This document shows, piece by piece, positions 41,101 to 58,345 of a DNA stretch of 64,000 nt. A program made the translations under genes and the position numbers. The stretch spans positions 17,030 through 81,029 of the forward strand of contig CASFQL010000023.1 in the NCBI GenBank assembly GCA_949296965.1. Direction: 5' to 3'. Each line of letters starts with the position of its first letter. Position 1 is the stretch's first letter. The DNA is from an uncultured Christensenella sp. (GTDB taxonomy: Bacteria; Bacillota; Clostridia; Christensenellales; UBA1242). The notes under the pieces are model-generated. The model was not told the DNA's origin and ran no database searches. It saw nothing but the letters and a program-made list of their open reading frames with translations.

Positions 41101-41263
41101 TATAGTAAATATTTTGACTTGCTTAAAAAATTTTTGTTTTATTAACTTTTAATATTTATAAAAATTTGGTAGGTGTTATAATCTATCAAATTTTTTTATA
41201 TTAATAAATGTTTTTGTATTTGACAAGATTTTGTTTGAAAGTTATCCTATTATTAGGTTAGAT

Positions 41264-43051
41264 ATGCAAATTATAAATAATGAATTAATTAAAGTAAATG
41301 AACAAGATATTGTCAATTTTGAGATTAGTGTCCCAGACAATGTAACAAGAATTTCTAAATATGCTTTTTTAAACTTAATCAATTTAAAAAGTGTGGTTTT
41401 ATCTAAAAATTTAACACACATATCAAAAGACGCTTTTAAGGGGTGTTATAATTTATCAAAGGTTTCTTTTCCACCTTCTTTAAAAATTATAGAAGAGGGG
41501 GCGTTTAAAGATTGTAATTTAATAGACCAAGTCATATTGCCAAAAAAATTAGAAAAAGTAGAAAGAAATGCTTTTTTATTTGAAAATTTTTCTTATTTAA
41601 TAGGTAAAGGTGATGAGTTAATTCTTACAAACTCTAAATTTAAAAGTGAAGATTTTATACAAATAGATTTAACAGATAAACCAAGAAGTTTAATTAAAAT
41701 GCTTATAACAAATTTTGATGATAAAGAGCAGTTATTAAAAGATTTTACAAAAGAAGAAAGTATGGAATTAAATAATATTTTGTATTCATTTTTAAGTAAA
41801 GAAGATTTTTCTAAATTTGTAAAGGATAAAAACTTAAAATTTTATAAACAGTTCAATCTCTCAAGTTTAACAAGAGAAGAAAAAATTAATTTTATTAAAT
41901 TTTATTATAATTTAGGTGGTTTCTTATCTCCTTTATATATGAAACAAGAAAAAAATGGTAAACAAAATATAAAACTTTTTGATTATGCTCAGTTTGTTGG
42001 CGAAACATTGAAAGATTTAATATTAAAGGGCTTAGATTTGAAGGAATTTTGTAGTAAGTTGGACGGCATAAGTTTACGAGAATTTAACAGTGAATTAACC
42101 GCTTTTATTTTAAACAAACAAAATTTTAATGAAATATTGCAAATTAGTCAGAACGATTGTAGTTTTATAAGCAAAATTTTTGGTTATTTTGAAAAAGTTC
42201 AAGATACAAATACTTCTAATAAGGGCAGGCAAAGACAACTATCTCCAACCGTCGAAAAATTTTATAATTATTTTAAAGAAAATAAGTTTTTTGGTGTAAC
42301 CAAAGCAAATAGGGATATAGCACAGACAATTTCTCCTTATTTCAATAATCAAAGTGATTTTATGTGTGCCGTAGAGATTATGAAAGAAAAACAAGAAAAC
42401 AATGTCCCAGATAATATTTTGCAAGATAAAATTGAAGATGAAAGTTTATTAAATATAGATGCTCTATATGAAAATATTTTTACATTAAATAAAAATACTC
42501 TAAATACTCTTACTGACCTTGCTAGTAAAAAATTTACTTTTGAGTGGCTTAGTAAATCTTCTCCTATAAACTTTATTTTAGGAAAACTTTGTAATTGTTG
42601 CTCCCACCTTAACGGAATGGGTTATGGCTTAATGTATGCTAGTATTGTTCACCCTGATTTTCAAACTTTGGTGATTAAAAACAATAAAGGTGAAATTATA
42701 GCAAAATCTACTTTATATCTTAATAGGGAGCAAGGATATGGAGTTTGTAATAATGTAGAAGTCAATGAAAAAATGAAGAAGAAAGATAAGGAAATTATAT
42801 ATTTGAAATTCAAGGCCGCAGTTTATTCTTTTGCTGAGAAATACAATAAGGAAAATAAAGATAATCCTATAAAAATCATTACTGTTGGTATGCAAGATAA
42901 TGATTTAGGAAAACAAATTGAAACAAATGATATAAAATCGTTAATTTTATATGACAATATTGATTTTAGTCGTTATAATAAACAAAAAGATGATTTTATT
43001 GGCAATAGTAGGGAAAGCCAATATATTGTTTGGGAAGGAAGAGAAAAATAA
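41264..43051 (+). CDS. LRR_5 (BspA-type) protein with C-terminal GNAT-like domain
   Basis: Residues 1 to about 105 hold BspA-type leucine-rich repeats (VTRISKYAFLNLINLKSVVL and relatives). A helical middle part of about 300 residues follows. The last about 150 residues begin CNCCSHLNGMGYGLMYASIV and continue with IAKSTLYL and a conserved CNNVEVNE, reminiscent of a GNAT-like fold with a Cys/His cluster; I base this on pattern only. No signal peptide is present, so unlike most BspA proteins it appears cytosolic. The ATG at 41264 is chosen over a TTG at 41231, but neither has a good ribosome site. The next gene starts at the base after the stop codon. Confidence 0.6.
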   Translation: MQIINNELIKVNEQDIVNFEISVPDNVTRISKYAFLNLINLKSVVLSKNLTHISKDAFKGCYNLSKVSFPPSLKIIEEGAFKDCNLIDQVILPKKLEKVERNAFLFENFSYLIGKGDELILTNSKFKSEDFIQIDLTDKPRSLIKMLITNFDDKEQLLKDFTKEESMELNNILYSFLSKEDFSKFVKDKNLKFYKQFNLSSLTREEKINFIKFYYNLGGFLSPLYMKQEKNGKQNIKLFDYAQFVGETLKDLILKGLDLKEFCSKLDGISLREFNSELTAFILNKQNFNEILQISQNDCSFISKIFGYFEKVQDTNTSNKGRQRQLSPTVEKFYNYFKENKFFGVTKANRDIAQTISPYFNNQSDFMCAVEIMKEKQENNVPDNILQDKIEDESLLNIDALYENIFTLNKNTLNTLTDLASKKFTFEWLSKSSPINFILGKLCNCCSHLNGMGYGLMYASIVHPDFQTLVIKNNKGEIIAKSTLYLNREQGYGVCNNVEVNEKMKKKDKEIIYLKFKAAVYSFAEKYNKENKDNPIKIITVGMQDNDLGKQIETNDIKSLILYDNIDFSRYNKQKDDFIGNSRESQYIVWEGREK

Positions 43052-48120: not shown

Positions 48121-48530
48121 TACGATAAAAATCTTACATATTTTATTTTATAATTTTTTTTATTTTAAAATTTGAATTTGACTATCCTTTAACTTTTTTG
48201 TTGTAAAAAATACTCTATTGTTTTTAAATTAAATAAATTTATTATATTATTTTAAATTTATAATAACACTAAAATATATAAGTTAATTTTATAGATTTTA
48301 GATATTTAGTAGTTTATATCTAATTTCTAATTTAATTTAAATTATTCAAATAATTATTTTTTTATTATTTTATGTTACTAAAATATTTAATAAATTTGTG
48401 ACTTACAATAATTCTTCCCTTACAATATCTGTCGGTCTTTCAATCTCTTACTAAACCGACGGCAAACGATAAATTTTTAGATACACTAAGGAATAAAACT
48501 TGTAATAACAATTAAATATTGCTATAAGTA
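48121..48530. other. Intergenic region downstream of the DGR template array
   Basis: AT-rich. GTCGGT (48431-48436) and ACCGAC (48455-48460) form a small hairpin that could end the DGR transcript on the minus strand. No gene was seen. Confidence 0.4.
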
Positions 48531-48643
48531 AGGGAAAGGCGAAACCCGATAGCAACACTAGTCGTTGTGAGGGTACTATCCACACTGTAAAGGAAAGGCC
48601 CAGCAATACTACTGTAGCCAACACCACCGCCACGAAGAAGACC
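48531..48643 (-). repeat. DGR repeat unit A: VR-like, adenine-mutated copy of template D
   Basis: It is exactly 113 bp, like units B, C and D. Compared with unit D it has 14 differences, and on the minus strand every one falls on an adenine of D (for example AAT to GGT, AAC to TAC, AAT to CTT). This is the signature of mutagenic retrohoming. The frame that would match the target protein is closed by stop codons just upstream, so A is not the end of a coding gene here. It may be a relic VR or a copied-back template. Confidence 0.88.
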
Positions 48644-48702
48644 AAACGAATGAAACTATTGCTAGCACAAATTAGTTTTATCCCCAAATTAGCAAGATTA
48701 TA

Positions 48703-48815
48703 AGGGAAAGGCGAAACCCGATATTAGAACTCGTATTAGTAATGTTGTTATTCACATTGTAATTGAAAGGCCCAGCACTAGATGTGTTACCCGCATTACC
48801 GCCACGAAGAAGACC
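48703..48815 (-). repeat. DGR template repeat B, template of the 831-aa target's VR
   Basis: Over 113 bp it matches the VR at 51258-51370 at all but 10 positions. All 10 mismatches are adenines in B (minus strand) replaced by G, C or T in the VR. B is rich in AAT/AAC codons (translated GGNAGNTSSAGPFNYNVNNN), as expected for a template. A conserved leader, GGGGATAATTCTTGTGC on the minus strand, lies at 48834-48850. Confidence 0.93.
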
Positions 48816-48865
48816 ACTAAAACCGAGAAACTAGCACAAGAATTATCCCCAAATTATTAAAAGCA

Positions 48866-48978
48866 AGGGAAAGGCGAAACCCGAAATTAGAATTCGCATT
48901 ACCAATAGTATTGTCTACACGGAAGTAGAAAGGCCCAGCATTAGTGCTATTACTTACATTACCGCCACGAAGAAGACC
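48866..48978 (-). repeat. DGR template repeat C, no matching VR in the window
   Basis: A 113-bp unit with the same invariant ends as B and D but different core codons (GGNVSNSTNAGPFYFRVDN in the target frame), rich in AAT. It does not derive from B or D by adenine changes alone, so it is an independent template. The same 17-base leader lies at 49007-49023. Its VR is presumably elsewhere in the genome. Confidence 0.82.
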
Positions 48979-49032
48979 AAATACTAAAAGTAAAAAGTTA
49001 CCGCACGCACAAGAATTATCCCCATACAAGTA

Positions 49033-49145
49033 AGGGAAAGGCGAAACCCGATATTAACATTAGTCGTTGTGAGGGTATTATTCACATTGTAATTGAAAGG
49101 CCCAGCATTACTACTGTTGTTAACATTACCGCCACGAAGAAGACC
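49033..49145 (-). repeat. DGR template repeat D, source of unit A
   Basis: A 113-bp unit directly after the reverse transcriptase gene, rich in AAT/AAC codons (GGNVNNSSNAGPFNYNVNN). It has an adenine at each of the 14 positions where unit A differs, so it is the donor. The leader GGGGATAATTCTTGTGC is at 49168-49184, overlapping the end of the RT region. No coding VR of D is visible in the window. Confidence 0.88.
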
Positions 49146-49187
49146 AAACGAGAAAACAGGCACGCACGCACAAGAATTATCCCCAAA

Positions 49188-50285
49188 TTAATTAGCACTT
49201 GCTAGTGGAAGTTGAATAGAAGAATTTAGAATTTGAGATTTAGCAAATAAACTTATTTTCTTTCTACACCAGCCAATATTAAAATAAGGCTTAACATAAA
49301 ATTTGTAAATTTTATTGCCACTAGCAACCTTTATTCTTGCCATATAACTGACAATTGCTTGCGCATCTAAAATAGAAAGCCTTGGCTTTTTGTAAGCCTT
49401 TTTAATTCTTCTTTTAGCACGCAAAAAAGTTTTTCTACGCAATGACATAAATGTTCTGTAAAACTTGTAACCTAAAAAGTCAATAGGTCGACCAGACTTG
49501 TCTTCGCCGACTTTAAATAATTTCCAATTTTGTTTCAAGTTTAACTTTTGCTTTTTTAAATAATCTTCCATTAAACTTTCATTTAACAGCAAAGTCCTTT
49601 TATTAGAAGAGAGAAAAACCATATCGTCCATATACCTAATGTAGTAAGGTATGTGAAGTTGCTCTTTTACATAATGGTCAAATTCTTGTAAATAAAAGTT
49701 TGCAAACCACTGACTTGTTACATTGCCGATAGGTAGACCGCTATCAACCGAACGAACAATTTTTTCAATTAGGGCAATAGTTTTGTTGCATTTTATAACC
49801 TTTCTAAACTTATCAAGTAAAATATCTTGGTCAACACTAGGATAAAATTTTTTAATATCAACTTGTAGACAATATTTCGTATACTTTCTATCCCTTTCTA
49901 GCCACTTTTTCATATACCTAATGCCATAACTACCGCCACGACCATCAATAGAAGCACAACTAAATGCGTATATTCCACGAAAAAAAATCGGTTTTAAGAC
50001 TAATATTAATGCCCACTGGATAATCTGGTCAGGGAAAAACCGCGGAATAAAAATCTCTCTTACTTTTGCCGTCCCTTTGTCGATAAGAGTTTTCTTTGCA
50101 TACTTAACAGGGTGATAACTCTCGTCTTTTAAAATTCTCTCTAAAATGTCTAATTTACTGTCCTTGTCTTTTAAAACTCGTTGAACATCACGCCTTTTCT
50201 TTTTTCCACGAGAAGCCATTTTTAGTGCTAATTCGAGTAATGCCCTGTCGCAAATTTTTTCATACAAGAAGCCAACTCTCCGCAT
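49188..50285 (-). CDS. DGR-type reverse transcriptase
   Basis: A 365-residue reverse transcriptase. The catalytic box is YIRYMDDMVFLSS, and motif 4 reads GLPIGNVTSQWFAN, the IGxxTSQ form typical of diversity-generating retroelement RTs rather than the QG form of group II introns. LQVDIKKFYPSVD holds the first catalytic aspartate, and REIFIPRFFPDQIIQWAL is the usual entry to the palm. There is no maturase or endonuclease domain. It copies template RNA with adenine-specific errors. The ATG follows AAAGGAC. Four template-like repeats lie immediately downstream and the target gene upstream on the same strand. No Avd gene is present. Confidence 0.93.
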   Translation of the reverse strand: MRRVGFLYEKICDRALLELALKMASRGKKKRRDVQRVLKDKDSKLDILERILKDESYHPVKYAKKTLIDKGTAKVREIFIPRFFPDQIIQWALILVLKPIFFRGIYAFSCASIDGRGGSYGIRYMKKWLERDRKYTKYCLQVDIKKFYPSVDQDILLDKFRKVIKCNKTIALIEKIVRSVDSGLPIGNVTSQWFANFYLQEFDHYVKEQLHIPYYIRYMDDMVFLSSNKRTLLLNESLMEDYLKKQKLNLKQNWKLFKVGEDKSGRPIDFLGYKFYRTFMSLRRKTFLRAKRRIKKAYKKPRLSILDAQAIVSYMARIKVASGNKIYKFYVKPYFNIGWCRKKISLFAKSQILNSSIQLPLASAN

Positions 50286-50717
50286 AAAAAAAGTCCTTTT
50301 GTAAAATTATGAGTTTTTAGAAAAAGTATTTAAAAAGCATTTTTGTTATTGATTATTTTCAATAACAATTTGATTATACATAAAAAAAGAAAATTTTGCT
50401 ACTAAAAAATTGAAGTTTTTAAAAAAAATTCACTAAAATGGATATAAATTAGTAAAATTTATAGAAAAATTTTGCCAAAATGGATAAAAATATTGAAATT
50501 TTTAAATTTTTTATAAAAAAGAAGTTATAATTTTGTATTTTTATTAAAAATCTATTTGTATAATTTTTCTTGTAGTTACAATTTTATTTAATATGATTTA
50601 AAGGTTAGTGTATTTTTGTAAAACAAACTATAATATAAGTTACAATGAGATTGACAATAAATTAAAATGAAGTTGACTAATTACTCTAAAAAAATAAAAG
50701 GACGATAAAAAATAAAA
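50286..50717. other. AT-rich region between the RT gene and cloverleaf copy 7
   Basis: Lies upstream of the RT gene on the minus strand, where its promoter is expected. No Avd-like small gene (about 120 codons) is visible on either strand here or up to 51247. Confidence 0.45.
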
Positions 50718-50812
50718 GGGCGATTTTGTGCGGTAAAAATTTTAGAATAAAATTTTTACAATGAAGTCCTTGGACTTCATACAAAAGTGAAACTTTTGGC
50801 ACAAAATCGCCC
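50718..50812 (+). repeat. Cloverleaf intergenic element, copy 7
   Basis: A 14-bp closing stem (GGGCGATTTTGTGC with GCACAAAATCGCCC) encloses a 12-bp stem at 50733-50759, ATGAAGTCC/GGACTTCAT and CAAAAGT gaa ACTTTTG. It is the best-paired member of the family. It lies within the DGR locus between target and RT. A TAATAGGTCGTTAAAAC motif follows about 45 bases later, as a close variant does after copy 2. Confidence 0.83.
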
Positions 50813-50856
50813 TGATAGTAGACATAACCAATTTTTTACAAGATATAGATTTTTTC

Positions 50857-51110
50857 TAATAGGTCGTTAAAACAAAAATTTGATAGGCTATTAAAATAAA
50901 AACAATAGGTCGTTAAAACAAAAATAATAGTAATTGAAATAAATAATTTTCATAGGTTATTAGAATAAAAGTTCTAGTAGTTATTTAATTGTTTAGTTCA
51001 TAATTATTTAATCATTTAGTTATTATTTATTTAATTATTGATTATTTATTTAATTATTAATCATCTAATTAATTAGTTATTAGCCATTTAGTTATTAATA
51101 TTTAGTTTAT
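50857..51110. repeat. AT-rich degenerate repeats
   Basis: ATAGGTCGTTAAAACAAAAA and close variants recur about four times between 50857 and 50970 (roughly 28-base steps), followed by low-complexity TTATTTAATTATT-type sequence to about 51110. No coding potential. Confidence 0.5.
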
Positions 51111-51114
51111 TTTG

Positions 51115-51240
51115 GGGGTAAAAAATATCGCGAGGCGCTTACGCGCCTAGGGCACTCACTGCGTTTCGTGTTATCGTGGCGGGGTCGCCACTACACTCAA
51201 CTTGTGAGTGCGTGAGTAGGGGGAAGGTTTTCCCCCTTAA
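51115..51240 (-). other. GC-rich, hairpin-dense block downstream of the DGR target gene
   Basis: Within otherwise AT-rich DNA this block contains AGGCGC-TTAC-GCGCCT (51133-51148), GCACTCAC...GTGAGTGC (51152-51211) enclosing GTGGCG-GGGT-CGCCAC (51176-51191), and finally the 8-bp hairpin at 51218-51237. It is noncoding and abuts the target gene's stop codon. The base composition suggests it travels with the DGR target region. Confidence 0.7.
51218..51237 (-). promoter_or_regulatory. DGR target-site hairpin (8-bp stem, 4-nt loop)
   Basis: AGGGGGAA and TTCCCCCT form a perfect 8-bp stem with a four-base loop, 20 bases past the VR's 3' end and 10 bases past the target stop codon. The best-studied phage DGR (BPP-1) requires a hairpin/cruciform of this size just downstream of the VR for efficient retrohoming. 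None of the template repeats has one next to it, which helps mark the true recipient. Confidence 0.8.
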
Positions 51241-51247
51241 ACCCCTA

Positions 51248-53743
51248 TCAGACGCCCAGGGAAAGGCGAAACCCGATATCAGAACTCGTACCAGTAATGT
51301 TGCTATTCACATGGTAAAGGAAAGGCCCAGCACTAGATGAGTAACCCGCACTACCGCCACGAAGAAGACCAAACGAATAGGTCGTTGCGTAAAGAGATAG
51401 ATTAGTGTTTACATAATAATAATCACTTAGTCCGCCACCTGCTGAACTTGAAGCAGTTTGAACACCTATTAAACTTTGCAAACCGTTACCACCTGTGATT
51501 TTACTTGTCCCTAAGTAGTTATATGTTCCAGCAGTAGTTGGTAAGTTATAAGACATTTGAGTATAATTATAAGGAGAAGTTACTAATGTTTCATAAGAAC
51601 TCTTGGAAGAAGAAGTATACCAATTTTTTGTTGTATAATTATAATCTTCAAAAGAAGTGTAGAGTTGAATTGTATAAGTGCTTGGAGAAACTTCCATTCC
51701 ATTAACAACATTGCCAAACACCCAAGTCCAAACATTGCCCCACGCATTGCACTGACCTAGACAAAATACCGAAGTGTATCTGTCGCTACCAACATAACCG
51801 TCAAGCAATACTCTCTTTGAGCCTGTGTTATAGACTAAAAATTGATTTGCATAAAGACCTTTTTTAGATATGGAGTTATTAGAACGGTTATCTGTATAAC
51901 TTGTATATTGATAGCCATAGGACATTTTTGCTTGGTTCATATAACTATCATTTGAGTTATAACAACCTATGACGGCGCCACCTTTTTCTGCTTCGTAATA
52001 AACCCTTGAAGAATTTGTAACTTCGCCTGCTTCGTTTTTGTCAACTGTTAGGAAAGTTTTACCGCTTAAAGTTGTTATTGTTACGCCGTTGTTGCTATTT
52101 ATATATAGCGAATATGTATAGGTGTTACCATAACCAACTTGTGATTGAGCATTGTTATTTGCATATTTTACTAGGTATAACCAATTATAGATAAATGCAA
52201 CATAATTTTCGCCTTGGGCTAGGGTAGCATTTGGAAGATATCCGCTGGCGCTTGTCATGCCTGCACTTTCCCACGCCTTTGTTAAGTTGCTTGCCCAAAG
52301 TAGCATATTTGCTTGGGTTGTAGAAGTCGTTGCACTTAGTCCGCTATTATTTTCGTATAGGTAGTAGGTCAACAAATGATTTACAGAACCGTTTGTGATT
52401 GGGGTGTAGTCATATACATAACTCCTTGGTATTATTCCGTTTGAGTTATAAGAAACTTCATAGGCAACAGAACCGTTTGCGTCCTTTGCGACTGTTCCAT
52501 CTTCATTATATTTTGGACTAAACATTGTGCTTTCAAAAGTTGCTGTGTAGAAGTTGTCTATTTTAACAGAGCCCGCAAAATATTTATCACTCACACTTAT
52601 GTATTGATAATCGCCCACTACCCATCTTCTTATATAAAATGTTGGGTAGTATGTATAAACATCTACCGTAAATGTTTCTGAGGCTGTAAGTTGTCTTCCG
52701 CTTGCTAACCTTGTCCCAGATGGGAGTGTTACTCTGCCACCATACCATTCAAAGTTATAGTTTAGGTCAGAAAATTTGCCTATTGGCTCTCCCGTTGCTA
52801 TGTCTATGTTAACAAGGTCTATGTCTTTATAAACTACTGTATTTATGTAATCGTCGCTTACGCTTGTGACTACATTGTTTGTCCCTGCATTTGTCAACTG
52901 TTGGGCTAGGCTAGATAAAGAACTGTTTTCTATTTTTGTGGCACTTGCGTTAAGTGTGCTATTGTATCCGTATTTTGTCCAAGCCGACCTTGAACTATTT
53001 AACTGTTGGTATACTGTTAAAACATTGTCCGCTTCATAATCTATATCTGGTGCAAAATTTACACTTAATGTTAAGTCGTTACTAACTAACTCTTGTTTAC
53101 TATCTTGCAACTGTATTGTGTAAACTTGCAAATATACATCATTTACATCTAGTGAAGAATTATCTAAAAACTCCTCGCCTTTATTTAGGTTGTCCGCTAT
53201 TTTGTTTAGGTAGGACATTGAGTTTGACGAAGTTTTGATTTTGTATGGGTCTATGCTCGCTGGGGAACTTGTGTCGAATGTATATTTTTTTGTTTCAACT
53301 ATTTCATAACTACTTGTCTGACTATTTGAAAATAGTGAGGTCGTAGGTATTATGTATCTATCTCCTATATTTTTTACAAAAACATATAAGGTTAATTCTT
53401 TCTCGCTAGTTAAATATGGAGTCAATCTCGTGCTTATTCTTGTAAATTCATTATCCTGTCCTAATATTGATATTACTTCTCCTGTTTGTTCATTTTCTTC
53501 AATTTTTGTATTCTCATTTGTTTTATCAAAGTTTAGGGACAGTCCTATGTCGTTGTCGTCCATTGTGTATCCACCCCAGATGCTTGCTCCTATACTTTGC
53601 GAATAACTGCTTTCATTTGCTTTTCTGCTCTCGTTTATTATGCTATATATAAGTTCAAAAACAACAAATGCAATAAAACACATACAAATGAATATATTTA
53701 ACATTGTATTATCTTTTTTCTTTACAAGTATATTGTTATTCAT
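51248..53743 (-). CDS. DGR target protein, membrane-anchored with C-type-lectin/FGE-like variable domain
   Basis: An 831-residue protein. Residues 14-38 form one hydrophobic signal-anchor (MLNIFICMCFIAFVVFELIY), leaving a large outward-facing part. The middle is Ser/Thr/Tyr/Asn-rich beta sequence. The C-terminal about 250 residues fit the FGE-sulfatase/C-type-lectin fold of known DGR targets: CNAWGNVWTWVFG at 665-677 corresponds to the usual WEWV core, and the end FGLLRGG...AGPF...IGFRLSLG carries the variable residues. The product is probably a surface binding protein with a massively variable ligand site. The ATG follows AAAAGGGGAAAA. The gene, RT and templates lie in one direction, with 960 bases between target and RT. 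Confidence 0.92.
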   Translation of the reverse strand: MNNNILVKKKDNTMLNIFICMCFIAFVVFELIYSIINESRKANESSYSQSIGASIWGGYTMDDNDIGLSLNFDKTNENTKIEENEQTGEVISILGQDNEFTRISTRLTPYLTSEKELTLYVFVKNIGDRYIIPTTSLFSNSQTSSYEIVETKKYTFDTSSPASIDPYKIKTSSNSMSYLNKIADNLNKGEEFLDNSSLDVNDVYLQVYTIQLQDSKQELVSNDLTLSVNFAPDIDYEADNVLTVYQQLNSSRSAWTKYGYNSTLNASATKIENSSLSSLAQQLTNAGTNNVVTSVSDDYINTVVYKDIDLVNIDIATGEPIGKFSDLNYNFEWYGGRVTLPSGTRLASGRQLTASETFTVDVYTYYPTFYIRRWVVGDYQYISVSDKYFAGSVKIDNFYTATFESTMFSPKYNEDGTVAKDANGSVAYEVSYNSNGIIPRSYVYDYTPITNGSVNHLLTYYLYENNSGLSATTSTTQANMLLWASNLTKAWESAGMTSASGYLPNATLAQGENYVAFIYNWLYLVKYANNNAQSQVGYGNTYTYSLYINSNNGVTITTLSGKTFLTVDKNEAGEVTNSSRVYYEAEKGGAVIGCYNSNDSYMNQAKMSYGYQYTSYTDNRSNNSISKKGLYANQFLVYNTGSKRVLLDGYVGSDRYTSVFCLGQCNAWGNVWTWVFGNVVNGMEVSPSTYTIQLYTSFEDYNYTTKNWYTSSSKSSYETLVTSPYNYTQMSYNLPTTAGTYNYLGTSKITGGNGLQSLIGVQTASSSAGGGLSDYYYVNTNLSLYATTYSFGLLRGGSAGYSSSAGPFLYHVNSNITGTSSDIGFRLSLGV
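51258..51370 (-). repeat. DGR variable repeat (VR) of the target protein
   Basis: The last coding 113 bp before the target C-terminus, residues 792-828. Its 10 differences from template B change eight residues: 798 N to S, 801 N to Y, 802 T to S, 809 N to L, 811 N to H, 814 N to S, 818 N to G and 822 N to D. Both ends are invariant: GGTCTTCTTCGTGGCGG at the 5' side and CGGGTTTCGCCTTTCCC at the 3' side, where the latter probably acts as the initiation site (IMH). Confidence 0.93.
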
Positions 53744-53891: not shown

Positions 53892-53987
53892 GGAACTATG
53901 TGCACCTAGAAATCGCGGAGAGATTTCTAGGGGGCGGAGTTTTTAAAAACTCCGCCTACAAAAGTTTCACTTTTGGCACATAGTTCC
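53892..53987 (+). repeat. Cloverleaf intergenic element, copy 8 (GC-richer)
   Basis: GGAACTATGTGC (53892-53903) pairs with GCACATAGTTCC (53976-53987). Inside are CCTAGAAATC/GATTTCTAGG, a perfect 24-base palindrome (GGCGGAGTTTTT and its complement) and CAAAAGT ttc ACTTTTG. It stands between the divergent DGR target and folD. Its stems are GC-richer than in other copies but the conserved arm is identical. Confidence 0.83.
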
Positions 53988-56572: not shown

Positions 56573-56664
56573 TTAAAAATAAAAAATAGAAATTAAAAAA
56601 TATAAAACATAATATAAAAATTTAATTTGAAATAGAAAGAAATTTTAATTTGTTAGGAGGACAA

Positions 56665-56922
56665 ATGAATAATACAAACATCAATATAAACGACTTAATA
56701 CAAAATGAAGTAAATAGAATTTCTTTGAAATATGGTAAAGATTTTTTAGACTGTGAAGACCTTGTCAAAATCACTGGACTTGGCAGAGATAATGTTCGTT
56801 CTCTTATGAGAAGTAAAAACTTTCCAACAACAAAAGTCGGCAAAAGACAAGTTGTAAGCGTGCTCAATTTTGTGACTTGGCTAACTCTCAACAATGCGCA
56901 AAGTGAGGTGGATAATGGCTAG
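56665..56922 (+). CDS. Excisionase-like helix-turn-helix protein
   Basis: An 85-residue protein with a winged-helix excisionase/HTH_17 pattern: DFLDCEDLVKITGLGRDNVRSLMRSKNFPTTKVGKRQVVSV. Such proteins bend attachment DNA and turn integration into excision. The ATG at 56665 follows TTAGGAGGACAA; the TTG at 56650 that would lie upstream of that site is rejected. It overlaps the start of the integrase gene by eight bases, which is the usual xis-int order. Confidence 0.75.
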   Translation: MNNTNININDLIQNEVNRISLKYGKDFLDCEDLVKITGLGRDNVRSLMRSKNFPTTKVGKRQVVSVLNFVTWLTLNNAQSEVDNG

Positions 56923-58345
56923 AAGTAAAATTATAAAAGACAGCAAGGCATTACCCAAAAACAAAGTTATAACGAAATATCGTAGAGCAAATGGTGAAGG
57001 AACAATTTATCAAAGAAAAGATGGCAGATGGACTGGTGCTGTTACGATAGGTTATGATGAGAATGGCAAACAAATAAAAAAGACTGTTTATGGTAGAAAT
57101 CAAACTGAAGTAGCAAAAAAGTTAAGCGATATTTCTGGGAGATTAAAAAGCAATTCTTATGAAGTAATGGAGAAAAAAACTTTTGGAGAACTTATGTCAG
57201 AGTGGCTTTTAGTGTTTAAAAAGAGTGCTGTAACTCCACGAACATTTGAAGGTATTATTCGCAATTATCGTTTGCATATTGAGCCAATAATTGGCAAAAT
57301 GAAAATTTATGAAATCGACACATTTGTTGTCCAACAAGTTTTCAATAAAATGATTGATGCCGATTATAGTTTAAATGTTGTAAAGAAAAATAAACATTTA
57401 ATCTCACAATTTTTTGAATATGCAATTGATAACAAGTGGGTTCAAGATAATCCAACAAGAAAAGTTTTAGTAAAGGTAAAGGATAGGAGAGTTTATAGTG
57501 GCAAAGAAAGATACAAAGCTTTAACACCAGAATCCAGAAGAATTTTTCTCAAAGCACTAAACGAAGATGAAAGCAATTTTTTAAAGCCTTTATGTTATGT
57601 GCTTCTGTTTGCTGGACTAAGAATAGGTGAAGCACTCGCTTTGCAATGGAAGAATGTTAATTTTGAAGAAAAGACTTTAAAAATTGAACGAAGTGTAACG
57701 CAAATTCCAAAGTTTGACAGCAATGGGAAAATTCTTTCTAGGGTTACGGTTATTGGAGACACAAAAACGACCTGCAGTGTTAGAGAAGTGCCAATCACAG
57801 ATATTGTTGTGAATACATTGAAAGAATGGAAAGAAAAACAAACTATTCGAGAAAGAACAAATCAAAATGTTACGGCTGAGCTCACAGCTCCAACATCTTT
57901 TATTTTTGCGAAAGACGATGGAAGTGTTAGGTCATACTCTGGTTGCAGAATGATTTTTGATAGATTTATTAGGCGTCATAACTTGAATAAATATAATATT
58001 CATTTTCACGGGCTTAGGCACACTTTTTCAAATATGCTTTTTGAAATGAATGAGAACCCAAAAGTAATTCAACAACTGCTTGGGCATAGAGACGTAAAAA
58101 CTACAATCACGGTGTATAACTCAGTTGATAGTGAATATATACGAAACACTACCGAGAAACTTAACGAAAAGATTAAAGAAGTGCAAATGTATTTGGACGA
58201 CCAAAAAAGAAAGGAAGACATAGAAAGCCGAAAAGAAGATTTGATTTCAAGAATGACCGATGAAGAGTATGACGATTTGCTTATGCAATTACTTGAAGAA
58301 CGAAAAGAGAGAAAACGCAAGAAAGAAGAAGATATGGAGATGTAA
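56915..58345 (+). CDS. int: Tyrosine recombinase (integrase)
   Basis: A 476-residue phage/ICE-type integrase. An N-terminal arm-binding domain (GEGTIYQRKDGRWTGAVTIG, about residues 25-60), a SAM-like core-binding domain (KTFGELMSEWLLVF onward) and the catalytic domain are seen in order. Catalytic residues are Arg in LLFAGLRIGEAL, His-x-x-Arg in HFHGLRHTFSNM, His in LLGHRDVKTT and the nucleophile Tyr in TVYNSV. The C-terminal about 50 residues are a charged helix. The ATG at 56915 follows GAGGTG; an in-frame ATG at 56894 has no such site. It probably acts at the tRNA-Thr-derived site near 60.3 kb. Confidence 0.93.
   Translation: MARSKIIKDSKALPKNKVITKYRRANGEGTIYQRKDGRWTGAVTIGYDENGKQIKKTVYGRNQTEVAKKLSDISGRLKSNSYEVMEKKTFGELMSEWLLVFKKSAVTPRTFEGIIRNYRLHIEPIIGKMKIYEIDTFVVQQVFNKMIDADYSLNVVKKNKHLISQFFEYAIDNKWVQDNPTRKVLVKVKDRRVYSGKERYKALTPESRRIFLKALNEDESNFLKPLCYVLLFAGLRIGEALALQWKNVNFEEKTLKIERSVTQIPKFDSNGKILSRVTVIGDTKTTCSVREVPITDIVVNTLKEWKEKQTIRERTNQNVTAELTAPTSFIFAKDDGSVRSYSGCRMIFDRFIRRHNLNKYNIHFHGLRHTFSNMLFEMNENPKVIQQLLGHRDVKTTITVYNSVDSEYIRNTTEKLNEKIKEVQMYLDDQKRKEDIESRKEDLISRMTDEEYDDLLMQLLEERKERKRKKEEDMEM

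Follow-up and report, generated by a model that had tools for sequence, protein, structure and literature searches.

In the usual picture of a diversity-generating retroelement (DGR), the template is a master copy that stays fixed, and the variable repeat (VR) is the sole part that is rewritten. The locus analysed here, in a 64,000-nucleotide stretch (the window) of the genome of an uncultured Christensenella sp., carries a reverse transcriptase (RT) gene followed by four tandem repeat units, and raises the question of which of these units act as templates and whether non-coding units can be changed as well. The genome is a draft of 33 contigs, 91% complete with 0.81% contamination. Target gene and RT are laid out as follows:

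51248-53743, minus strand: target gene, an ORF of 831 aa with the VR at its C-terminus
51258-51369, minus strand: VR core of 112 nt, at the 3' end of the target gene
51219-51236, minus strand: hairpin with a 7-bp stem and a 4-nt loop, read from the sequence, 21 nt 3' of the VR core
49188-50285, minus strand: reverse transcriptase of the DGR type, 365 aa (RVT_1 in Pfam, PDB match)

The best PDB sequence match of the RT was 8ub7 (E = 3.5e-27), labelled 'Reverse transcriptase' in the PDB table and presumably the RT of the Bordetella phage DGR, followed by 8bgj (E = 3.9e-11). In contrast, group II intron RTs in the PDB reached E = 2.2e-10 or weaker, and the group II NCBIfam model scored 96.9 bits against a cut-off of 300; this ranking and the score below cut-off ruled out a group II intron RT, as the original prediction had expected. 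Relatives of the RT carry adenine-specific template repeat (TR)/VR pairs (100 non-redundant pairs in 160 loci). Judged by its sequence, the enzyme belongs to the DGR type and not to group II introns or retrons. No match to Avd (PF05635) was obtained in the genome, with a search that was also silent in 14 of 14 control genomes, and no ORF of at least 80 aa lies between target and RT.

A repeat search of the window identified the 3' end of the target gene as a fifth copy of the repeat; the VR is coding and the TR units are non-coding, the arrangement of a DGR. All ten differences between VR and unit B fall on B adenines (hypergeometric P = 1.5e-7), and B is therefore regarded as the template of the target VR. 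The hairpin agrees in size and distance with elements of other DGR targets described in the part of PMC3240598 used here, while its AACC loop is unlike the GRNA loop given there for phage DGRs. Adenine-specific changes, RT matches and hairpin together uphold the proposed DGR identity. The N-terminal segment of the target protein is hydrophobic as judged by eye. Neither the protein (Pfam, NCBIfam and PDB) nor its C-terminal domain searched separately (PDB and Pfam) gave a hit above cut-off, and a structure prediction of the C-terminus (pLDDT 30.6) was set aside. Target homologues occur in five of 11 other genomes of the genus, and eight aligned homologue C-termini from four genus genomes are diverse at the VR positions.

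The array consists of four 112-nt units in the order D, C, B, A:

49033-49144, minus strand: unit D, a template-like unit with 10 AAY codons, the donor sequence for A
48866-48977, minus strand: unit C, template-like, 7 AAY codons
48703-48814, minus strand: unit B, 9 AAY codons, template for the VR of the target
48531-48642, minus strand: unit A, a copy of D mutated at adenines, no AAY codons, template-type flanks, non-coding

Position and spacing of the units (steps of 172, 163 and 167 nt; 163-172 predicted) were borne out by the repeat search, and target, RT and units indeed run in one direction, all on the minus strand. Units A and D differ at 14 positions, and 14/14 lie on D adenines (P = 3.2e-10), so that here, as in the 10/10 of B and VR, the repeats do not vary at all four bases equally. 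A as the parent of D was ruled out, since 14 changes would be needed, every one to adenine. Because no AAY codon is left in unit A, it is not template-like, and four equal templates were likewise ruled out. The predicted picture of template-like units with different cores between invariant ends thus holds for B, C and D, whereas A is a mutated copy of D. B is shown to be the donor to the VR and D the donor sequence of A; no recipient was found for C.

The original prediction further suggested that one RT could serve several targets, each array unit having a target gene of its own. The backbones of B, C and D do differ, and one genus-mate, G004, has several target homologues. However, a whole-genome protein search with the target returned one target gene, the other eight matches being array or dispersed non-coding units, and because the genome (91% complete) shows a single target gene the suggestion is not supported. 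In G004, one template was found, and of its three readable VRs only one resembles it, with adenines accounting for 22 of the 32 differences. We therefore consider this explanation very unlikely. DGRs with several TRs have been published before: in the portion of PMC6642488 drawn on here, 79.9% of 271 multi-VR DGRs have one TR only, Stenotrophomonas has two TRs, and Pseudomonas costantinii has six, which are termed atypical and show few adenine changes. Individuals with multiple TRs are also recorded from metagenomes in excerpts of PMC4891356. The window system likewise has several TRs per genome, but the same portion of PMC6642488 makes no mention of a tandem array sharing one 3' domain or of adenine-mutated template units.

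Compared with BPP-1, the canonical DGR, the system is alike in RT, template repeat, VR at the target 3' end, adenine-specific changes, post-VR hairpin and structured RNA 3' of the template. It differs in having four units instead of one template, an array placed after the RT, a mutated unit A, dispersed copies of the template RNA and no Avd found (by a search without positive control). The structured RNA of the window follows unit A:

48415-48530, minus strand: structured 3' domain of about 116 nt, RT-18-like (Rfam, covariation, six genome copies)

Rfam RT-18 (RF03021) matched positions 48417-48488 with 30.7 bits, below the gathering threshold of 41.3, and the domain, which has the hairpin and long helix in common with RT-18, was therefore filed as RT-18-like only. 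Hairpin and helix are conserved in 28 aligned tails, six of them from this genome, with 97.6% of cells paired and 64 double-sided changes; the covariation score was reached by 0 of 500 shuffles, the structure being derived from these same tails. Pairing with the RNA 3' end would be possible over 9 to 12 bp for every unit and over 6 for the VR, while the same test in relatives gave 5-9 for units against 6 for the VR and thus no clear advantage for units.

The whole template RNA (leader, core and 3' domain) is present at five further intergenic places with six cores. A genome search with the tail found six copies at E = 9.5e-35 or better, the next match being 3.9e-4 over 23 nt. Among the dispersed elements, cores are 58-77% and tails 90-97% identical, and 5' flanks are 74-85% identical among four of the five (53-60% for C21:29689), while the DNA outside them is AT-rich and 38-62% identical, a range without shuffled control. 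One place holds a tandem pair, in which C12:112505 differs from D at 16 positions, 12 of them adenines (P = 1.1e-5), and C12:112331 from B at 16, 13 of them adenines (P = 2.2e-7). The four other cores differ from D at adenines in 15/24, 14/30, 12/28 and 19/40 positions (P = 1.7e-5, 0.0033, 0.019 and 0.00015, uncorrected). The dispersed cores also depart from the template compared at 3 to 21 positions other than adenines, so the genome does not contain their exact donors. In the tandem pair, the 5' flanks are identical over 43/43 bases and the first 21 core bases are common to both, whereas the cores differ at 35/112 positions, one being D-like and one B-like, and the spacer best matches the B-to-A spacer of the array (score 66 vs 45.5-54.5). 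A spacer like B-to-A and shared flanks around differing cores indicate that cores have moved relative to positions. The predicted evolution of the template set by duplication fits the array, this pair and the dispersed copies.

Could the copies come from other organisms through faulty binning or assembly? The draft state of the genome would allow it. However, contigs C12 and C21 carry single-copy genes whose nearest genus matches are 74% and 88% identical, contamination is low, and tail similarity links the copies to the array, which makes an artefact barely credible. At C12:15833 and C21:104036, the element is absent in the syntenic genus-mates G011 and G001. Flanks checked by eye showed no consistent target-site duplications. 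Transposon-driven duplication of DGR loci is on record in the section of PMC10907252 used. That the scattered elements are long coding genes was rejected, as the VR frame is closed by a stop after 1 to 17 open codons upstream of each of the seven non-coding mutated cores, unit A included.

At the level of sequence comparison, the DGR type of the RT, B as donor of the VR, A as a mutated copy of D and the five further RNA sites, whose cores bear the adenine signature and diverge much more than their tails, can be taken as established. We infer that this is probably a DGR with several templates, that its template RNA has spread and that the non-coding copies have been rewritten, either through retrohoming directly or through conversion from the expressed VR. 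The array would be transcribed as a single RNA ending in the RT-18-like domain, which may bind the RT and pair through its 3' end with the 3' end of one unit; since such pairing is possible for every unit, different units could be selected as template. B cDNA would be written into the target VR, and mutated cores might reach the last array unit and the scattered copies in this way too, or through recombination with the VR. The latter seem bounded like the RNA and so may stem from insertion of reverse-transcribed template RNA.

The pattern of changed adenines counts against direct rewriting, which should not spare the adenines outside AAY codons. In unit A, 14/20 AAY adenines and 0/9 others changed (Fisher P = 0.0007), resembling the coding VR (9/18 and 1/9; P = 0.09, a bias that is not significant). 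The dispersed pair gave 10/20 vs 2/9 (P = 0.23) and 11/18 vs 2/9 (P = 0.10), neither significant. In relatives (91 coding VR/TR pairs), change affected 57% of AAY adenines and almost as many of the others, 50%; among pairs with at least five of these other adenines, so few changes at them occurred in 1/70, and a second low pair had 1/8 changed. In addition, the BPP-1 RT misreads adenines in all NAN contexts tested, at varying rates, according to the part of PMC12875486 used here. Mutated cores might thus be old VR versions, gene-converted from the VR into non-coding units, a possible account that we do not favour. As the VR here has the same AAY tendency, a quirk of the RT would explain VR and unit A alike. 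The VR frame is open through each of the seven non-coding mutated cores, as gene conversion would predict, but open frames are to be expected in any case, because no AAY codon can mutate into a stop. Moreover, none of the cores found in the genome is identical to today's VR, and the 3' flanks of the units are unlike the VR flank.

Relatives provide a view of arrays elsewhere. Tandem arrays of 2 to 7 non-coding units occur in the relatives L054, L055, L056, L067 and L132/L133, where they lie before the RT, unlike the window array. Like here, some of their units are adenine-poor: 6/19 have at most one AAY codon (L133 omitted as a near copy of L132). In L054, L055, L056 and L132, one array unit is closest to the VR. 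Between the viral contigs L132 and L133, the VR differs at three positions, each a template adenine, and 1301 positions of array and tail show 0 differences. The VR was rewritten there and the array was not, which counts against rewritten non-coding units and would suit scattered elements and unit A being inert duplicates of template RNA genes, mutated formerly beside a VR or in an older array and now without a role. The intergenic location, the lack of a matching target gene and core changes at non-adenine sites also fit this idea, as do the own tails, two of six of which had no RT-18 match at E 1 or better (four listed at 30.6-31.1 bits). However, the tails are alike with base pairs kept, and two sites are empty in genus-mates, so the copies appear recent when set against the divergence of their cores. 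Inert duplicates are thus a somewhat doubtful explanation, and we retain the reading of a spread and rewritten template RNA.

Extending that reading, the template RNA might be a mobile, rewritable store. The RT would insert full-length copies at new intergenic sites, and variant cores, including protein-selected ones, would be written back into array and scattered copies as a heritable record of past receptor variants, reusable as templates; we consider this unlikely, if conceivable. Silent-cassette antigenic variation, as in pilin or VlsE systems, also involves non-coding variant copies of a variable gene segment. The window system is alike in these copies but differs in its RT and adenine-specific changes.

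A non-coding VR is known from Pelodictyon phaeoclathratiforme, where one of four VRs lies outside a coding region; according to the portion of PMC3521204 used, it is likewise an adenine-mutated copy in DNA without an identifiable gene, and template-type flanks or an RNA domain are not mentioned there. No description of scattered template RNA copies or adenine-mutated template units was found in the parts covered of the DGR literature searched (PMC6642488, PMC3521204, PMC8144416, PMC3240598, PMC4372165, PMC12875486, PMC8867640, PMC10907252 and PMC4891356). Here, non-coding template-type units bear the same adenine-specific change, and a whole template RNA is multiplied in the genome. If confirmed, this would have a bearing on how the template of a DGR is kept safe or lost, on how one is picked among several, and on whether the RT of a DGR is able to mobilise its own RNA.

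Promoter scans gave 20 matches in the array region (15.7 in shuffles) and 8 at one of the five dispersed places (6.1 in shuffles). Strong tail copies numbered one per genome in 25/25 related DGR genomes, 14 of which had supplied a tail to the search model. One strong copy was also found in 6/6 other genomes with a match in the family search (309 genomes) and in 2/2 in the class search (391 genomes), these sets overlapping. Two exact-pattern scans of viral contigs gave zero exact matches to two conserved stretches, and 10/11 genus-mates have no template RNA tail. L054, L055, L056 and L067 carry one strong RT-18 copy each, compared with six copies of the RT-18-like domain here. In five relatives searched, RT-18 scored above gathering (50.7-59.8 bits) and was located between TR and RT, which assigns this Rfam RNA to that position in five DGR loci.

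The genome is a draft of 1.15 Mb (completeness 91%, contamination 0.81%), and the window carries in it a genuine diversity-generating retroelement (DGR), as the original prediction held, with an adenine-specific pair of template repeat (TR) and variable repeat (VR) and a DGR-type reverse transcriptase (RT). Its parts, in locus order, are:

53743-51248, minus strand: target gene, an ORF
51258-51369, minus strand: VR, a fifth copy of the repeat, at the 3' end of the target gene
50285-49188, minus strand: RT gene
49033-49144, minus strand: unit D, 112 nt, downstream of the RT gene
48866-48977, minus strand: unit C, 112 nt
48703-48814, minus strand: unit B, 112 nt
48531-48642, minus strand: unit A, 112 nt
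48530-48415, minus strand: tail, 116 nt, after unit A

A hairpin, read from the sequence, lies 3' of the VR copy, and a 24-nt repeat of palindromic look, 88% alike in its two copies (50780-50803 and 53957-53980), flanks the target gene. Beyond folD- and glyA-like genes, an excisionase-like ORF (56650-56922) and a tyrosine-recombinase-like ORF (56894-58345), both on the plus strand and recognized by eye, point to an integrative element whose span, from roughly 56.6 kb onward, excludes the DGR.

The RT matches Pfam RVT_1, and its best PDB sequence match is 8ub7 (E 3.5e-27; runner-up 3.9e-11), the DGR RT of the Bordetella phage. Against the NCBIfam model for group II introns, the score stays below the cut-off. 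As had been proposed, the enzyme is of the DGR type rather than a group II intron RT. Relatives were collected by RT search, keeping the best 80 of 135 genome-contig loci and the best 80 of 162 viral-contig loci. A repeat finder that penalizes changes at A and T only lightly drew from these 160 loci 100 non-redundant pairs that exceed 80 nt and have 85% or more of their differences at adenines; for 91 pairs, the ORF containing the VR stays open for at least 100 codons upstream.

Sorting the mismatches according to which base the presumed template carries separated the roles of the units. All 10 differences between VR and B fall at B adenines (chance P 1.5e-7) and all 14 between A and D at D adenines (chance P 3.2e-10), so that these two pairs, as had been expected, differ at template adenines and not equally at all bases. 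The remaining array pairs were not clean, with adenine differences of 10/27 for D vs C, 10/24 for B vs C, 6/21 for D vs B and 14/28 for B vs A. AAY codons number 9 in B, 10 in D and 7 in C, compared to 2 in VR and none in A, which lies within the array with template-type flanks and without a long reading frame of its own. Judged from these patterns, B is the template of the target and A a mutated copy of D. The predicted tandem array of four units stands, but not all four are template-like.

The tail, the structured 3' domain of the template RNA, occurs six times in the genome, the next match reaching only 3.9e-4 over 23 nt:

Window: after array unit A
C12:15833, C12:43047, C21:29689 and C21:104036: each with a core
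C12:112331: with a core, second of a tandem pair (partner core C12:112505)

All of the scattered copies, located on two other contigs, combine a core with a 5' flank resembling the array units and are sited between ORFs. Similarity extends from ~44 nt upstream of the core to ~117 nt downstream; beyond these bounds identity is 38-62%, in AT-rich DNA and with no shuffled baseline. Pairwise identity among the five elements is 58-77% in the core, 90-97% in the tail and 74-85% in the 5' flank, except for C21:29689 (53-60%). In all six scattered cores, adenines account for an excess of the differences from D or B (12/16, 13/16, 15/24, 14/30, 12/28 and 19/40; P 2.2e-7 to 0.019, uncorrected), leaving 4, 3, 9, 16, 16 and 21 non-adenine differences, and exact donors of the more diverged cores were thus not found in the genome. 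The C12 tandem pair adjoins a leucine-rich-repeat-like gene (L009, 4839-7079) resembling, by eye, a 606-aa ORF of the window (41231-43051).

The two members of this pair share the whole 43-nt 5' flank and the first 21 bases of the core, yet 35 of the 112 core positions differ between them, and one core is D-like, the other B-like. The spacer separating them best matches the array's B-to-A spacer, whereas in the array the corresponding positions are taken by a B core and a D-derived one. Slow mutation does not easily fit this arrangement. Core replacement does explain it, and cores would accordingly appear to move INDEPENDENTLY of flanks.

To count copies elsewhere, we ran a covariance model built from the tail over overlapping genus, family and class sets that include the own genome, the latter two filtered more strictly. 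Among 12 genomes of the genus, the own genome shows six strong copies plus a weak match (E 0.03), G004 a single copy, and the other ten none. More than one copy was found in the own genome only, both in the family (7 of 309 genomes matched) and in the class sample (3 of 391). Following 25 of the 80 genome loci to their genomes gave 25 genomes with one strong copy each (G025 adds a weak match, E 0.008); 14 of them had contributed a tail to the model, which makes the presence of a copy partly built in, but not the absence of second copies. Both contigs carry genes that occur once in this genome and once in most genus-mates: those of C21 in 11 of 12 genomes, our own included (nearest mate 88% identical), those of C12 in 10 of 12 (74%). 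In G011 and G001, the genes flanking C12:15833 adjoin each other with no element between them, as do those flanking C21:104036, where a small ORF present here is also missing. This comparison covers two of five sites; in other genus-mates, the neighbour gene is absent or cut off within 1.5 kb.

The tail is a structured end of the template RNA. Rfam RT-18 (RF03021) matches 48417-48488 below gathering (E 0.012), as it does four of the six own tails, two being absent at E 1; in five relatives searched it matches above gathering, between TR and RT. Across 28 aligned tails (six own, 22 from relatives), two helices are paired in 97.6% of cells with 64 double-sided changes, a covariation score unreached by 500 shuffles and by slid versions, with the structure derived from the same alignment. 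The 3' end of the window units can pair with the RNA 3' end over 9 to 12 bp, longest in B, and that of VR over 6 bp; units of relatives reach 5-9 bp against 6 for their VR, no clear advantage. Two of the scattered tails (L017 and L018, 1499-1606) are overlapped by RT-14 matches of 34.7 and 33.9 bits, short of the gathering threshold of 48.1, and RT-17 weakly matches two relatives (L053, L056); RT-14, RT-17 and RT-18 may be one group.

Of the AAY adenines of unit A, 14 of 20 are changed, compared to none of its 9 other adenines (P 0.0007). VR (9/18 vs 1/9) and the tandem pair (10/20 vs 2/9; 11/18 vs 2/9) lean likewise, none significant alone. Among relatives, the 91 coding pairs have changes at 57% of AAY adenines and 50% of the others, and only 1 of 70 pairs with at least 5 other adenines changes these as little as A does. 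The BPP-1 RT misreads adenines in all contexts tested, at differing rates (PMC12875486). Either the RT of this system differs in how it misreads adenines, or A's core had earlier been expressed and, after selection at the protein level, was copied into the array.

Counting the VR, three or more anchored copies of a single TR type occur in 6 of 160 loci, a lower bound because the anchor fits one TR type and other arrays may be missed. Non-coding units number 2 in L054, 3 in L055, 5 in L056, 2 in L067 and 7 each in L132 and L133; leaving out L133, 6 of 19 have at most one AAY codon. L132 and L133 are near-identical IMG/VR contigs from two metagenomes, with a seven-unit array including two adenine-poor units. 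Three VR positions, each a template adenine, separate the two contigs, compared to 0 of 1301 positions in array and tail and 0 of 1572 upstream of VR: the VR is active there, and the array shows no measurable change. This identity made us slightly less confident in what we still consider the best explanation, and a fairly probable one, namely a DGR with a template array, whose template RNA has spread and whose non-coding copies are rewritten; any function of the scattered copies is putative. This DGR is a variant that combines a multi-unit template array, one unit that is a mutated copy of another and dispersed template RNA. Published work already describes multi-TR DGRs (PMC6642488) and one VR outside a gene (PMC3521204), and the parts of the literature searched hold no description of template RNA dispersal or mutated template units. 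L067 (1836-2098) stands out in that the two non-coding units found before its RT are both poor in adenines, with 0 and 1 AAY codons, and would seem to leave it without a good template.

Among genus-mates, G004 has one template, one RT-18 copy and five places with target homologues, some of them truncated at contig ends. Of its three readable VRs, one is template-like (22/32 differences at adenines) and two have no clear template likeness (20/43 and 17/49). Target homologues also occur in G005, G006, G010 and G011 (L216-L221, L238-L245), where neither an RT-18 copy nor an RT at E 1e-20 was found (a distant RT in G010 contains a stop), so that targets persist there without a visible DGR. In G010 (L238, 2924-3136), a second VR-like segment directly follows the target gene, in its own short ORF.
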